From a virus: a stretch of DNA of 23,050 nucleotides. The translations under genes and the position numbers were made by a program. Shown piece by piece: positions 2,605 through 22,920 of this stretch (position 1 is its first letter; the number at the start of each line of letters is the position of its first letter). The notes under the pieces are model-generated. The model made no database searches. It was not told where the DNA came from and saw nothing but the letters and a program-made list of their open reading frames with translations. The DNA lies in IMG/VR virus record IMGVR_UViG_3300025913_000494, positions 1 to 23,050 of that record. The stretch is one strand, 5' to 3'.

Positions 2605-4200
2605 ATGGGAATCCTCGACAATCTTTCAGATGCCCTGAGCGGTTCAAATCGGTTTAATACCGGGCCAAGCTCAAACAATTCTACGCCTGATGCGCCAGAC
2701 CAAACCTCTGCGCAACCCCAGCCTTCTCCCGCGTCACAGCTACAAACCCCGCCACAGTCACAACCTCAGCAGATGGGTTCACAACTCACAGGCGTAAAAG
2801 GCTATCTCTCAAACATCTTTTACCAGATGGGCGAAGCGGCCAAGGCTCATCTGGGGATGCCTACCGATGTGCAGGTACAGCAGAACCAACAGAAATTAAA
2901 TATTGAGAAACAGAGGGCAGATCAAGAGAACAGTATTGCGCAACAGAAATTGCAACAGCAGATGCAGCTTGTAACTTTGCCGAATGGTATGCAGGTTCCA
3001 TTCGCACTGGCAAAACCATATCTCGATTCCCAGACAAAAACTCAAGTTGCGACTATCGGAGCCAACGCCAAGATTACTGGCCAGATGATCGGGAAACGCT
3101 ATATACCCGTGGCCGGGGTAGGCATGTTCGATACGCAGCCTGCTAATGGGGGCGACCCTCAATTGGTTCCTGGTAGCAATCCGGTAAGCGTAACAGTCAC
3201 TGATGAGATCGCCAAAGAGTACGGGGTGCCTCAGCAGTTGGTTGGAAAAAATATTCCAATTCAGCAATTCAGTTCTCTGCTAAGAGGTCAGGCCGCATTT
3301 ACTCCGACTGTAACTAACAGCACGAAAACGATGGAAGCCACCATTAACGGCCAACCAACTGTTGTACAGGTTCCACAAACGAGCACAACCAGAAAGGCGG
3401 TTCAGGGTGCAGCGCCATCCAATCAATCGCCAAAATCGCCAGTTAACCTAACCACAAACCCGAGCGGAATAAAAGTTTTAACGGGGCCAGATGGACAGCC
3501 ACTAATGGGCAAAGGTGGCTCCGAAACTGGCTTTGCATTTGACCCTGCCACTAAAGAGAACTATTTGACAACTCGCTCTGATGCGGCTACGAAAGGCTAC
3601 CAGAATTTCACGAAAGCTAGCGCAGCCCAAATTGAGAGCACAAGGCAGTTGAATAATCGGCTCGCAGACGTGCAGCAGAAAATAGAACGCTATCAGGGAG
3701 CGGCCAATCAGCCACTCAGCGCGGGAGACAAGTACGCCATTTCCAAATTGATGAGCGATCAGCACTTTGAAGCAGCATTCAAACCCTTTGGCGTGGGAGT
3801 GACAATCCCTACAGGATTCATTACGGAACTCGACCGGGCTGCACAGGCTAACGGTCTTTCCGATGCAGGACGGAACAAACTCATTTCCTACATGAATGCG
3901 CGTGAGGCAATGGTTGGCTATCAGCGGGTCTTATCAGGATCAGGACGAGGCAATGAAAAGCAGATGGAAATGCTTCTGCAAACACTCCCCAGCCCGATCA
4001 CCGATTCTTCCTTTGCCAATGAAGGATTCAAGCAGTTCCGAGAGAACCTCCGCATAGCAGGGCAAGGGCTTCCAAAGATTCCCGGCGTACAGAGTGCAAG
4101 CGATATTGAAAACAAAAACGCTCAATCGGAAACGAAGTATTACCAGGGCATCCCCTACACCAAAGGCCCAGACGGACAATGGCACAAAGCCAAACAGTAA
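2605..4200 (+). CDS. Large Gln/Pro-rich virion protein, function unknown
   Basis: A 531-residue protein whose ATG directly abuts the previous stop. Residues about 20-60 are a low-complexity Ser/Pro/Gln segment. Residues about 90-120 form a strongly charged Gln-rich helix (QQKLNIEKQRADQENSIAQQ). The middle is beta-rich with many Thr/Pro. Residues about 325-480 are mostly helical and may form a globular domain. It ends YYQGIPYTKGPDGQWHKAKQ, a short compact tail seen in some phage internal proteins. With the genes on either side it probably forms a set of internal or ejection proteins; no enzymatic motif was seen. The last 22 bases overlap the next gene. Confidence 0.72.
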   Translation: MGILDNLSDALSGSNRFNTGPSSNNSTPDAPDQTSAQPQPSPASQLQTPPQSQPQQMGSQLTGVKGYLSNIFYQMGEAAKAHLGMPTDVQVQQNQQKLNIEKQRADQENSIAQQKLQQQMQLVTLPNGMQVPFALAKPYLDSQTKTQVATIGANAKITGQMIGKRYIPVAGVGMFDTQPANGGDPQLVPGSNPVSVTVTDEIAKEYGVPQQLVGKNIPIQQFSSLLRGQAAFTPTVTNSTKTMEATINGQPTVVQVPQTSTTRKAVQGAAPSNQSPKSPVNLTTNPSGIKVLTGPDGQPLMGKGGSETGFAFDPATKENYLTTRSDAATKGYQNFTKASAAQIESTRQLNNRLADVQQKIERYQGAANQPLSAGDKYAISKLMSDQHFEAAFKPFGVGVTIPTGFITELDRAAQANGLSDAGRNKLISYMNAREAMVGYQRVLSGSGRGNEKQMEMLLQTLPSPITDSSFANEGFKQFRENLRIAGQGLPKIPGVQSASDIENKNAQSETKYYQGIPYTKGPDGQWHKAKQ

Positions 4201-5408
4201 CCCCAGATACCCTACCAGCAAACTTTGGGCAGTGGGATTCGTCGCCCGATACTTTGCCAGAGAACTTCAACGGGTTCGATTCTCCGAAGTCTGCTCCGGC
4301 TCAACCTGAAACTCAGAGCAGCGCAGTAATGCGCTTTCTGAAAGCGGCAGGGAGTAAATATCTGGGCGCAACTTTGAATGCAGGGCCAACGACCAGCACG
4401 CCCGGAATGTATGGCACTCCTGAATGGCAGCAAGCAGAACAGGCCATGTACGACCGCTATAAATCAGGCCAGAAGCAACCAGGGCTGCTCGACTACCTGA
4501 AATCGGCATCGCTGGCCAATGTTCCCGATAACGCGCTGAAAGAAGTCAAAAACCTGAACCCGATTGACATGCAGAAGTTTGATTCCGGCGATGTTGCCGG
4601 GGGCTTGGGTTCCACGGCCATGAATCTTCTGATGTTGCGGCAGGCATGGAAAGGATTGAAAGGCAGTCCGACTCCAGAGTTTAACGCGCCAAACACATCA
4701 GAGATAGTTCAACCTCTAAGCGGATATTCAAAGGCCACACCGCAGCCGCCAAGTCCGGCGACTTCCGCGCCTGCTCAAGCACCGCCATCGAATTCGATTC
4801 TTCCGAACGCTACTTATCTTCAGCCTGAAATGCGCGCCTTGACCAGCGCAAAAACCAGACTGCCCGATGAGATAAACAAAAACACAAACACTCTGGCACA
4901 AGAATATTTCATTCAGAAGATGCGCGAGCAGATGAATCGGCAGACCGTAACAGGATCAGCCGAACAAGATGCTGTCATGCAGAGAATGGCGGACTATGCC
5001 AAGACTCCAGTAGACAAGATGCAAGGCAAGGCATCAGGGCCTGTATCTTCTCCGCAGTATGCCTATCGCACGCGGGATGCTGGAGAAACGGGCATCATGC
5101 CGAACGCAGGCAAGACGGCACAGGCAAGCCTTGATCCCGCCAAAGTCCAAAGCTACATGCCAGGGAGAGCGCAAGCCCAGAACGCAGCGCAGGAATTGGT
5201 CAGGGTTGATCTTTCAAGGCTCGATCCCAGCGAGTACGAAATACAGCCGAATGGCTATGTGAAATTCAAAGGCGCTGTGCCTGAATCGTTCATTGAAAAA
5301 GTTAATCCAGATGCACCCCGCGTTCCAACCTCAGATGCAGACCTGATGAATCTTTTAATGCAGTCGATCCAAAAGGTAAAAGGCAAAGCACGGGCAGCAG
5401 GCAAGTAA
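4179..5408 (+). CDS. Virion or ejection-type protein with N-terminal PDTLPxNF repeats
   Basis: A 409-residue protein starting MAQSQTVTPDTLPANFGQW. The PDTLPANFGQWD unit is followed at once by a second copy (PDTLPENFNGFD). Such short Thr-Leu-Pro-x-Asp/Asn-Phe motifs are common near the N-termini of phage internal proteins and may be docking motifs (inference). A hydrophobic or amphipathic stretch near 80-150 (LLDYLKSASL, AGGLGSTAMNLLMLRQAW) could contact membrane. The C-terminal third is polar and ends with a Lys-rich helix. It overlaps the upstream gene by 22 bases. It is the last gene before the lysis cassette. Confidence 0.7.
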   Translation: MAQSQTVTPDTLPANFGQWDSSPDTLPENFNGFDSPKSAPAQPETQSSAVMRFLKAAGSKYLGATLNAGPTTSTPGMYGTPEWQQAEQAMYDRYKSGQKQPGLLDYLKSASLANVPDNALKEVKNLNPIDMQKFDSGDVAGGLGSTAMNLLMLRQAWKGLKGSPTPEFNAPNTSEIVQPLSGYSKATPQPPSPATSAPAQAPPSNSILPNATYLQPEMRALTSAKTRLPDEINKNTNTLAQEYFIQKMREQMNRQTVTGSAEQDAVMQRMADYAKTPVDKMQGKASGPVSSPQYAYRTRDAGETGIMPNAGKTAQASLDPAKVQSYMPGRAQAQNAAQELVRVDLSRLDPSEYEIQPNGYVKFKGAVPESFIEKVNPDAPRVPTSDADLMNLLMQSIQKVKGKARAAGK

Positions 5409-20256: not shown

Positions 20257-20528
20257 GCGATAACAAAAATTGCAAACTGTGCGGAGCGAAACCAGAACAT
20301 CAGACAAAGATCCAAGCTCTGCAAAATATCGGAGAAATATATCCATCTGGTCGCGGTCTGCCTATGTCGGAAGGCCCATGGGTAGTTATTCCGAGCGACA
20401 AGCAGCCGCCCTACAAATTCGCGGTGATAGGCAAGGATGAAAAGCCAGTCGCTTTCACGCACGGCAAGGAAACCTCCGAAGCATACGCGGGACAAATGAA
20501 CACGCAGGGATACATCGAGGTTTATTGA
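20253..20528 (+). CDS. Small hypothetical protein with CxxC
   Basis: A 91-residue protein starting MSDNKNCKLCGAKPEHQTKI. One CKLC pair near the N-terminus, then a beta-rich part (PWVVIPSDKQPPYKFAVIGK). ATGA overlap upstream and TGATG junction downstream. Its first 15 bases are identical to those at the start of the methyltransferase gene. Confidence 0.65.
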   Translation: MSDNKNCKLCGAKPEHQTKIQALQNIGEIYPSGRGLPMSEGPWVVIPSDKQPPYKFAVIGKDEKPVAFTHGKETSEAYAGQMNTQGYIEVY

Positions 20529-21445
20529 TGAGCGATAACAAACCAAAGCGGCTCACGCTGGGAAGTTTATTCGCTGGCATAGGCGGCTTTGATCTGGGTT
20601 TTGAGCGGGCGGGATTTGAAACGGTTTGGCAGGTAGAGATTGACGAGTATTGCAGGAGGGTGCTTGAAAAACATTTCCCCAGAGCAGAACGGTTTGGCGA
20701 TATCCGAGAGTGCGGAGCGCACAACCTCAAGCGGGTTGACGTTATCTGCGGAGGGTTTCCCTGCCAGCCTTTCAGCTCCGCCGGCCAACGCTTGGGAACG
20801 GCGGATGATCGTCACCTCTGGCCGGAAATGCTCAGAGTTATTTCAGCACTCAGGCCCGACTTCGTTGTGGCAGAGAACGTTGCTGGATTTATTGCTCTGG
20901 AAGATGGACGGATTCTCGACCAGGTTTACTCCGATTTGGAGAGCGAAGATTACGAACTACTCCCGCCGCTTATGGTTCCGGCTGCAAGTTTCGGCGCTTG
21001 GCACCGAAGGGACAGAATTTGGATTTGTGCCCACTCCCTGCGCAGCACCAGAGGCACCGAACCTAAACAGCAACAAGAAGATCGGGCCGCGGTCACTCGT
21101 AGAGTTTGCGCGCATGGTGCCGACACCAAAAGCAACGGATGCGGATCACGGAGGGCCGAACCAGCGAGATTCATCGGGCGCTCCAAGCCTGACTATGCGG
21201 CTGCACATGCTGGCCACGCCTCAATCGCGGGACTACCGGACTGGGCAGGCGGAGAGATGGGACAACCCAGCCCGCTCACGGAATTTGAACGACCAGGCGG
21301 GCGGGAAATTGAGCGTGATTTTCGTGGAGTGGCTCATGGGGTATCCCGAAGGGTGGACCGCCTTAGAGGGCTCGGAAACGCCGTTGTTCCACAAATCGCG
21401 CAGTGGATCGCGGAAAGGATCAAAGAAAGTTTAAGCCAATGTTGA
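20528..21445 (+). CDS. DNA cytosine-C5 methyltransferase (Dcm-type)
   Basis: A 305-residue enzyme that would methylate cytosine at C5 of a short site, either to resist host restriction or for regulation. Motifs: I SLFAGIGGFDLGFERAGF (13-30); II VEIDEYC; IV CGGFPCQPFSSAG with catalytic Cys79; VI ENVAG (116-120); VIII HRRDRIWI (159-166); X RLRGLGNAVVPQIAQWI (278-294). The target-recognition part (about 170-270) is polar and Gly/Arg-rich. The start ATG at 20528 shares its A with the previous TGA. Oddly, the +1 frame is also open and protein-like from 20640 to 21434 (separate entry). No partner restriction enzyme was seen. Confidence 0.92.
   Translation: MSDNKPKRLTLGSLFAGIGGFDLGFERAGFETVWQVEIDEYCRRVLEKHFPRAERFGDIRECGAHNLKRVDVICGGFPCQPFSSAGQRLGTADDRHLWPEMLRVISALRPDFVVAENVAGFIALEDGRILDQVYSDLESEDYELLPPLMVPAASFGAWHRRDRIWICAHSLRSTRGTEPKQQQEDRAAVTRRVCAHGADTKSNGCGSRRAEPARFIGRSKPDYAAAHAGHASIAGLPDWAGGEMGQPSPLTEFERPGGREIERDFRGVAHGVSRRVDRLRGLGNAVVPQIAQWIAERIKESLSQC
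20640..21434 (+). CDS. Overlapping +1-frame ORF resembling phage methyltransferase C-terminal proteins
   Basis: A 264-residue frame, +1 to the methyltransferase and open from just after a TAG at 20634. From about residue 38 it reads GFPASLSAPPANAWERRMIV, then TSGRKCSELF, VPTPCAAPEAPN, VPTPKATDAD, ATPQSRDYRTGQAERWD, NLNDQAGG and FVEWLMGYPEGWTALEGSET. The repeated TP-x-A/T-x-D blocks and the FVEWLMGYPxGWT ending are what I associate with a group of phage cytosine-methyltransferase-related proteins. Both frames are thus credible over the same DNA. The start is unclear: TTG at 20640 has no ribosome site, and an ATG at 20805 is an alternative. It may be a separate protein, a frameshift product, or a non-expressed relic. 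Confidence 0.5.
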   Translation: MTSIAGGCLKNISPEQNGLAISESAERTTSSGLTLSAEGFPASLSAPPANAWERRMIVTSGRKCSELFQHSGPTSLWQRTLLDLLLWKMDGFSTRFTPIWRAKITNYSRRLWFRLQVSALGTEGTEFGFVPTPCAAPEAPNLNSNKKIGPRSLVEFARMVPTPKATDADHGGPNQRDSSGAPSLTMRLHMLATPQSRDYRTGQAERWDNPARSRNLNDQAGGKLSVIFVEWLMGYPEGWTALEGSETPLFHKSRSGSRKGSKKV

Positions 21446-22449: not shown

Positions 22450-22920
22450 ATGACTAAACATTTCAAGTATGCGGTTTATTTGGCGCGGCACAAGTGGTTT
22501 GTGTTCGTCGCTGGCCTGCGGATCGGCGCACCATTGTGGCGGCTGATTATCCACGATTGGAGCAAGTTTCTGCCGTGTGAGTGGTTGCCCTATGCGCGGT
22601 ACTTCTATGGCACGCCACACAAATATCAATTTCCATGCTGCGTAAAAGCCCAAACTGATTTTGACCGCGCATGGCTGCACCATCAACACGCTAACCCTCA
22701 CCACTGGCAGCATTGGGTATTACGTGAGGATTCCGGCGCAACAAAGGTACTGGAAATGCCGATTCGCTTCGCCCGTGAAATGGTAGCGGATTGGATGGGA
22801 GCAGGTCGGGCCATAACAGGCAAATGGGAAACAGCGCAGTGGTACGCAAAAAACAAACAGAACATTCAGCTTCACGAGGCCACGCGGGAAATAGTTGAAA
22901 ACATTTTGGCCGGGCGGTGA
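22450..22920 (+). CDS. DUF5662-family protein
   Basis: A 156-residue protein starting MTKHFKYAVYLARHKWFVFV. Family features in order: LIIHDWSKFLPCEWLPYARY with His35-Asp36; FDRAWLHHQHANPHHWQHWV with five clustered histidines (77-85); LEMP; and REMVADWMGAGRA with Glu110 and Asp114. The His/Asp/Glu pattern suggests a metal-dependent, HD-like helical fold, but no reaction is known to me. GGAG lies about 8 bases before the ATG. Such genes are common in phage early regions. Confidence 0.85.
   Translation: MTKHFKYAVYLARHKWFVFVAGLRIGAPLWRLIIHDWSKFLPCEWLPYARYFYGTPHKYQFPCCVKAQTDFDRAWLHHQHANPHHWQHWVLREDSGATKVLEMPIRFAREMVADWMGAGRAITGKWETAQWYAKNKQNIQLHEATREIVENILAGR

Follow-up and report, generated by a model that had tools for sequence, protein, structure and literature searches.

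We describe a locus that very probably encodes a naturally split cytosine-5 DNA methyltransferase, in which two overlapping genes, here called alpha and beta, together specify a single enzyme. The locus lies within a 23,050-base IMG/VR record, referred to below as the window; all features of the locus are on the plus strand. An ORF check of the window placed the main ORF at 20525–21445, with an ATG at 20528, and the initial annotation had given the positions and frames of both ORFs correctly. The alpha gene (20528–21445) encodes a predicted C5-methyltransferase catalytic subunit of 305 residues, with motifs I–VIII and X and without motif IX. The beta gene (20640–21434) occupies the +1 frame, open for 264 codons from a TTG at 20640, and is predicted to encode an overprinted subunit of the specificity type. 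Judged from sequence comparisons, beta is a real, widely conserved overprinted gene that almost certainly forms the second half of the methyltransferase.

Profile searches treat the two frames very differently. Alpha is matched by PF00145 over residues 11–173 only (3.6e-48) and by phrog_363 over residues 4–301 (1.6e-75). The window beta has no Pfam or NCBIfam match, and models from these two collections match 0 of 79 members of the beta family. PHROG 1008 covers the family (79/79 members) and matches the window beta over residues 28–247 (phrog_1008, 1.1e-22); its label, DNA methyltransferase, is silent on its being the +1 frame of another methyltransferase gene. When 50,697 phage records were searched by tblastn, beta matched 61; in 51 the match covers 80% or more of the beta length, and 48 are from Paenibacillus phages. 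Searched on its own, the +1 frame thus has homologs in PHROG 1008, in these 61 phage records and in viral and bacterial contigs, rather than spurious ORFs alone. Paenibacillus phage Tadhana carries two overlapping annotated coding sequences, one per frame, both called DNA-cytosine methyltransferase, and beta is without annotation in several of the records inspected. Two DNA-cytosine methyltransferases are listed in a study of 48 P. larvae phages, which used an annotation procedure that penalizes overlaps; its passages on annotation make no comment on the alpha/beta overlap. In the uncultured marine phage KT997847 (locus L004, 2270–3106), only a short methyltransferase N-terminal part and beta are annotated, the latter as ‘putative cytosine-specific methyltransferase’, and the alpha start and the remainder of alpha are in different frames.

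Alpha retains most of the canonical motifs. Motif I, GSLFAGIGGFDLGFERAGF, which we take to bind AdoMet, has computed coordinates of 20561–20617. Motif IV, GGFPCQPFSSAG (20750–20785), presumably holds the catalytic cysteine, and its PCQ is invariant in 74 sequences. Invariant in the same 74 sequences are E116 and N117 of motif VI, VVAENVAGF (20864–20890), H159, R161 and R163 of motif VIII, GAWHRRDRIWICAH (20993–21034), and G283 and N284 of motif X (GNxVxP), present as GLGNAVVPQ. Motif X lies within GVAHGVSRRVDRLRGLGNAVVPQ (21326–21394), whose bases also encode the end of the beta motif IX block and continue beyond it. The consensus of the 74 sequences keeps motifs I–VIII and X, shows little conservation between motif VIII and the block W..EP.V.RVA.G.P.RVDRLK.LGNA, and lacks motif IX. 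The main frame had been credited with motifs I–X; this holds for I–VIII and X and fails for IX, which is missing from the consensus, the PF00145 match being confined to residues 11–173. Compared with the C5 cytosine methyltransferase family (PF00145), alpha therefore has motifs I, IV (PCQ), VI (ENV), VIII and X, and the recognition region and motif IX are located in beta rather than on the same chain.

The window beta consists of a conserved N-terminal domain, three TPxAxD modules and a motif IX block. The N-domain (SGLTLSAEGFPASLS ... RKCSELF ... WRAKITNYSRRLWFRLQVSALGTEGTEFGF; 20724–21026) overlaps alpha motifs IV–VIII and has, over 79 sequences, the consensus LT....D..AS.S..PGS..AR.MT.TSG.KC ... 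LTWK ... RLLFQL.PS.P.T..TE.GLWPTP, followed by TP modules and then LNP.FVEWLMGYP.GWTDL. Module 1 is VPTPCAAPEAPNLNSNKKIGPRSLVEFARM (21027–21116); module 2, VPTPKATDADHGGPNQRDSSGAPSLTMRLHM (21117–21209), pairs with L201 and is 39% identical to an in-frame segment of the Gordonia phage Lton methyltransferase; module 3, LATPQSRDYRTGQAERWDNPARSRNLNDQAGGK (21210–21308), falls into a module family with 44 members, spread over 36 loci. The terminal block, LSVIFVEWLMGYPEGWT (21309–21359), has E230, M233 and T240 invariant and W231, L232, G234 and P236 in at least 90% of the 79 sequences. In the window, the counterpart of motif IX is EWLMGYPEGWT, read in the +1 frame; we assign LNP.FVEWLMGYP.GWTDL to motif IX because natural rearrangements, described below, place the equivalent block together with motif X. 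Searching PDB sequences with the beta profile gave two matches only, both to a chemotaxis protein at E 2.1 and taken as chance, and an AlphaFold model of beta alone (71 sequences) was of low confidence (pLDDT 59.8, pTM 0.26). One relative, the 504-codon beta of L156, carries an unrelated insert, KDFVEYLRTQTS...HWFRKDNKGFSHPSIQDWETIKPLL, between its TP modules.

To define the extent of the overlap, relatives were gathered with beta (80 IMG/VR loci) and, separately, with alpha (80 loci). Using alpha and beta HMMs on independently found ORFs, we located beta at +1 to alpha in 251 of 251 loci from viral contigs, bacterial contigs, named phages and plasmids (80/80 beta-selected, 80/80 alpha-selected, 80/80 bacterial genome contigs, 6/6 and 5/5 named); since beta itself served as the query for two of the large sets, the alpha-selected set is the fair one, and it holds only the closest relatives of the window alpha. 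A beta HMM built from the beta-selected set matched the +1 ORF in 75 of the 75 alpha-selected loci with a usable alpha start (E<1e-5). Outside these 75 are L096, L119, L134, L138 and L141, in which the alpha start was mis-parsed and which scored as non-significant in the shuffle test below; L079 and L082, where a stop shortens alpha, and the mis-parsed L091 likewise fall outside the HMM test. A search with the Gordonia phage Lton protein added 39 loci: the +1 overlap is present in 33, one has both parts in one ORF and five are without one or both matches. From the motif region to the end of the beta motif IX block, the alpha frame is open in 80/80, 80/80, 77/80, 5/5 and 5/5 loci (beta-selected, alpha-selected, bacterial and named sets), and the beta frame in 75/77, 80/80, 80/80, 4/5 and 5/5, with three loci set aside as their beta pieces are in different frames. 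An initial test, which counted no stops in the alpha frame across the modules where 503 were expected, was biased, beta having been bounded by the alpha ORF, and was replaced by the independently found ORFs.

An open +1 frame of this length is not expected from alpha alone. We shuffled the synonymous codons of alpha, keeping its protein, and measured the longest +1 run. In the window this run is 265 codons against a shuffled mean of 107.4, and none of 300 shuffles was as long. At p<0.05 the run was significant in 78 of 87 loci (the window, six named phages and 80 beta-selected loci) and, for the alpha-selected set, in 73 of 80, with median runs of 250 and 228 codons compared with null medians of 114 and 99. 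Among 219 neighboring ORFs of at least 200 codons, used as a control, 17 reached p<0.05 and two had a +1 run of at least 170 codons. The longest +1 run in the 473-codon gene of the canonical E. coli enzyme Dcm is 88 codons.

Selection on the two frames was compared in 38 independent pairs, aligned as DNA over blocks of at least 65% identity, and expressed as changes per site at alpha positions 1/2/3. Upstream of beta, where only alpha is encoded, the values are 0.129/0.067/0.408; over motifs IV–VIII they are 0.142/0.084/0.232, in the module region between VIII and X 0.290/0.115/0.087, and over IX–X 0.208/0.082/0.114. Because the alpha third position is the beta second position, this pattern shows selection on alpha only upstream, dual coding over IV–VIII, beta-type coding in the modules and dual coding again at IX–X. 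Third positions are slower over IV–VIII than upstream in 33 pairs and faster in four, with first positions alike (19 vs 18), and position 1 exceeds position 3 in the module region in 23 pairs and falls below it in two. An earlier count on alpha-protein alignments agreed upstream and in the middle region and was blurred by misalignment in the module region, so the DNA alignment is preferred. Between the window and its nearest relative, L007, the 58 shared codons from module 3 onward differ 4/5/13 times at beta positions 1/2/3, with 51 beta and 42 alpha residues identical. The comparison of codon-position rates in both frames, proposed in the initial annotation, accordingly reveals constrained alpha third positions over IV–VIII (0.232 vs 0.408 upstream); together with the +1-frame homologs and the openness against the codon-shuffle null, it supports the conserved overprinted second protein suggested there.

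The number of TP modules per beta ranges from 1 to 8 across 256 betas. A first count of module clusters included the N-domain TP block as the largest cluster; the later filter removes this block except in the window, where one N-domain TP is retained and the true count is three. Modules move between divergent backgrounds: 1516 pairs of modules from different loci are at least 60% identical, and in 371 of these the N-domains are less than 50% identical, with the module at a different index in 261 of the 371. In 165 pairs the N-domains are not alignable over 45 residues. The family of window module 3 occurs at indices 0–7. In a set of 147 pairs with divergent N-domains (modules 50–92% identical, each used at most twice), identity reaches 0.72 when the beta frame is read, compared with 0.34 for alpha and 0.36 for the third frame; counted by beta codon position (1/2/3), the differences number 1341/934/2899. 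Choosing pairs by beta similarity favors beta identity, and leaves unaffected both the codon-position pattern and the failure of alpha to exceed the third frame. We call the TP modules target-recognition modules because they are mobile between backgrounds, are conserved only in beta and are placed where other C5-methyltransferases recognize DNA, all of which suggests that they form the target-recognition region.

Natural rearrangements connect the two frames to single-chain enzymes. Residues 159–244 of the window beta are 39% identical to residues 255–340 of the Gordonia phage Lton methyltransferase, where the segment lies in frame between motifs VIII and X and the Pfam model spans 19–360. In actinophage-type relatives (16 sequences aligned), an EWMM block is followed by motif X in the same frame. 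The actinophage-type contigs L253–L273 and L285 carry motifs IX and X in the alpha frame, with part of the TP modules still at +1, and L253, L255, L271, L273 and L285 have additional modules in frame 0. The AlphaFold model of L253 aligns with M.HhaI at Z 22.7 and rmsd 3.3 over 233 residues, the first and last aligned residues, 1 and 445, falling on 11 and 325; its pLDDT is below 50 only at 117–137 and 189–346, and the module stretch is thus not confidently modeled. The opposite arrangement is found in L176 (a Bacillota MAG; 3768–5068), in which alpha stops just past motif VIII and beta carries TP modules, motif IX and motif X in one ORF. The old alpha frame is full of stops, a decay that a single sequencing indel would not give; with motif X outside alpha, the linker is therefore no longer kept open. 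The only other bacterial loci in which the alpha frame is interrupted, L197 and L225, each contain a single stop. The alternative raised initially, of two lineages related by an ancestral frameshift, thus has a real counterpart in the actinophage relatives and L176, whose parts have changed frame; the window pair itself is overprinted.

How beta begins is the least certain part of the locus. The probable start (20655–20666) combines GGAGG at 20655–20659 with a TTG at 20664–20666; all beta start candidates in the window are TTG codons, and it contains no ATG with a Shine–Dalgarno (SD) sequence. Of 154 loci, 124 have an open, in-frame ATG 5–30 codons upstream of the PCQ site, against 60.6 expected from alpha-preserving shuffles, and a beta ATG with an SD-like sequence is present in 74, against 15.0 expected. 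Independent initiation is accordingly favored by these sequence patterns over programmed ribosomal frameshifting, in which a ribosome would read I–VIII in frame 0, shift to +1 for the modules and motif IX and return for motif X, yielding a canonical single chain. That reading is very improbable. The order VIII–modules–IX–X across the frames is indeed the canonical one, and some relatives are single chains that have IX and X in the same frame; however, two shifts would be required, the beta frame is constrained over IV–VIII, which would be needless if the shift came after VIII, and alpha remains open across the module region in nearly all loci of the sets given above. The excess of beta ATG and SD sites also disfavors it. 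A +1 shift at CCC-U had been proposed from GGAGGGTTTCCCT, which is present in the window; among 155 loci we found no sign of a conserved slip site there. CCC occurs at the PCQ site in 62 of 155 loci (40%), just mildly above the 31% of other prolines, and the beta frame is open for at least 10 codons upstream of the proposed site in 155 of 155. The proposal is not supported by this comparison.

Two further explanations concern beta itself. If the +1 ORF were a by-product, the conserved alpha protein and base composition would keep the other frame open and similar. Conserved motifs IV–VIII alone would yield some apparent +1-frame conservation, and some GC-rich loci are non-significant against the shuffle null (e.g. 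L005, L013, L046, L057). Yet alpha-preserving shuffles break the +1 frame in most loci (78/87 and 73/80, compared with 17/219 in the control), and the module region is conserved in beta and not in alpha, which refutes this reading unless the alignments are wrong; we regard it as extremely improbable. It is improbable, if less strikingly so, that beta is no enzyme subunit and instead an independent overprinted protein serving some other function, such as anti-restriction or regulation. In favor of this reading, Pfam and NCBIfam models match none of the 79 members; against it, motif IX and a conserved recognition region are missing from alpha and present in beta, and L253, L005 and L176 have these blocks joined to motif X or to a whole methyltransferase. 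An alignment of alpha–beta chimeras (A4) was discarded, its consensus revealing that beta modules had been aligned against the alpha N-terminal part. The split enzyme, which we prefer, has points against it as well: the poor AlphaFold model of beta alone and the lack of a convincing PDB match, the very low confidence of the module stretch in the single-chain relative L253, the TTG-only start of the window beta, and the actinophage relatives that hold motif IX in the alpha frame, so that beta is not always its carrier. A last such point is that the target-recognition domain (TRD) of M.EcoHK31I is predicted (PMC3404938) to sit in the large subunit, the opposite of what is argued here.

In M.EcoHK31I, the smaller gene is embedded in the larger one in another frame. 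According to the subunit descriptions in PMC3404938, its larger subunit contains motifs I–VIII and X and a predicted TRD and its smaller subunit motif IX only, while M.AquI has the distal recognition region and motifs IX and X on the smaller subunit; M.EcoHK31I has been termed naturally split (PMC3439449). Compared by description, the two-polypeptide M.EcoHK31I (YGGCCR) is the closest known system: as there, I–VIII and X are on the large chain and IX on the small one, and the small gene overlaps in another frame (251/251 at +1). The two differ in that the described TRD lies in the large subunit, whereas here the conserved modules are in beta and the alpha segment is unconserved (0.34, against 0.36 for the third frame and 0.72 for beta). 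With the two-polypeptide M.AquI (CYCGRG), as described, the window shares the split and a distal recognition region with motif IX on the smaller subunit; it differs in having motif X in alpha, and the M.AquI-like division, with X on the small chain, is found only in L176.

Multispecific Bacillus phage enzymes are single-chain, with their recognition units in the main frame. The loci described here likewise have tandem, shuffled modules on a phage enzyme, but carry 1–8 of them in the overprinted frame, where each module may have its own target. Tandem TRDs of Bacillus phage C5-methyltransferases are described in PMC8936443. For overlapping C5-methyltransferase genes in phages, the passages available from the open-licence literature yielded only descriptions of M.EcoHK31I and M.AquI. 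What is new here is the breadth of the overlap, together with the shuffling of specificity-like modules between divergent backgrounds within an overprinted frame; of these, the modules are what a specialist would least expect.

The window looks like part of a temperate phage. Its genes include an integrase, an HNH endonuclease, an Erf-like annealing protein, a replication initiator, a RusA-like resolvase and a YqaJ-like recombinase, and no restriction enzyme was found among the subset of window proteins searched; an orphan, self-protecting methyltransferase would be the ordinary reading. Four ORFs of 253–531 residues (54–1058, 1843–2604, 2605–4200 and 4179–5408) have no PHROGs or Pfam match at the thresholds used, and a DUF5662 protein (1.2e-43) is encoded downstream of the methyltransferase region at 22450–22920.

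Distant DNA searches found no recognizable M.EcoHK31I in E. coli genomes; prophage copies of the alpha/beta pair were found instead, two in L293 and one in L294. In L293, a prophage of E. coli PT62, the pairs lie at 349–1423 and 3298–4154, with beta unannotated in both, and when 5,426 E. coli genomes were searched with a DNA query from L293, 15 matched, 12 of these across 80% or more of the query. In E. coli PCP07014 (L295, 3349–4151), both frames are interrupted at about the same place, and RefSeq flags alpha with an ‘internal stop’. In the prophage of E. coli ECCTRSRTH03 (L296, 1496–2665), RefSeq records two partial ‘DNA cytosine methyltransferase’ pseudogenes; despite this annotation, both frames are intact over long stretches, alpha for 389 codons and +1 for 343.

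We propose the following mechanism, in which both genes would be translated in vivo. Alpha would provide AdoMet binding and catalysis (motifs I–VIII) together with motif X, and its segment between VIII and X would be a linker with no conserved sequence, maintained free of stops to let the ribosome continue to X. Beta would start at its own ribosome-binding site within alpha; its N-domain would probably dock on alpha, and its tandem TPxAxD modules would form the target-recognition region, with beta also supplying motif IX. The two chains would join as a heterodimer into one active enzyme, which would most likely methylate the phage's own DNA against host restriction. We extend this tentatively, as something quite possible but less than probable: beta may be a string of 1–8 exchangeable cassettes, each with its own DNA target, recombining between phages, while the catalytic gene need only stay open. 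If so, a large phage and prophage methyltransferase class would be a modular modification system with multiple specificities, encoded in a frame other than that of the annotated gene.

If the split-enzyme reading is true, predicting specificity from the annotated alpha means reading a linker that is not conserved, and the specificity information sits in a frame that has no Pfam or NCBIfam model and is often missed by annotation. The locus would also represent a deeply conserved same-strand overlap, found beyond the classical small viruses and hosting module exchange, and the family may serve as a source of naturally split methyltransferases.
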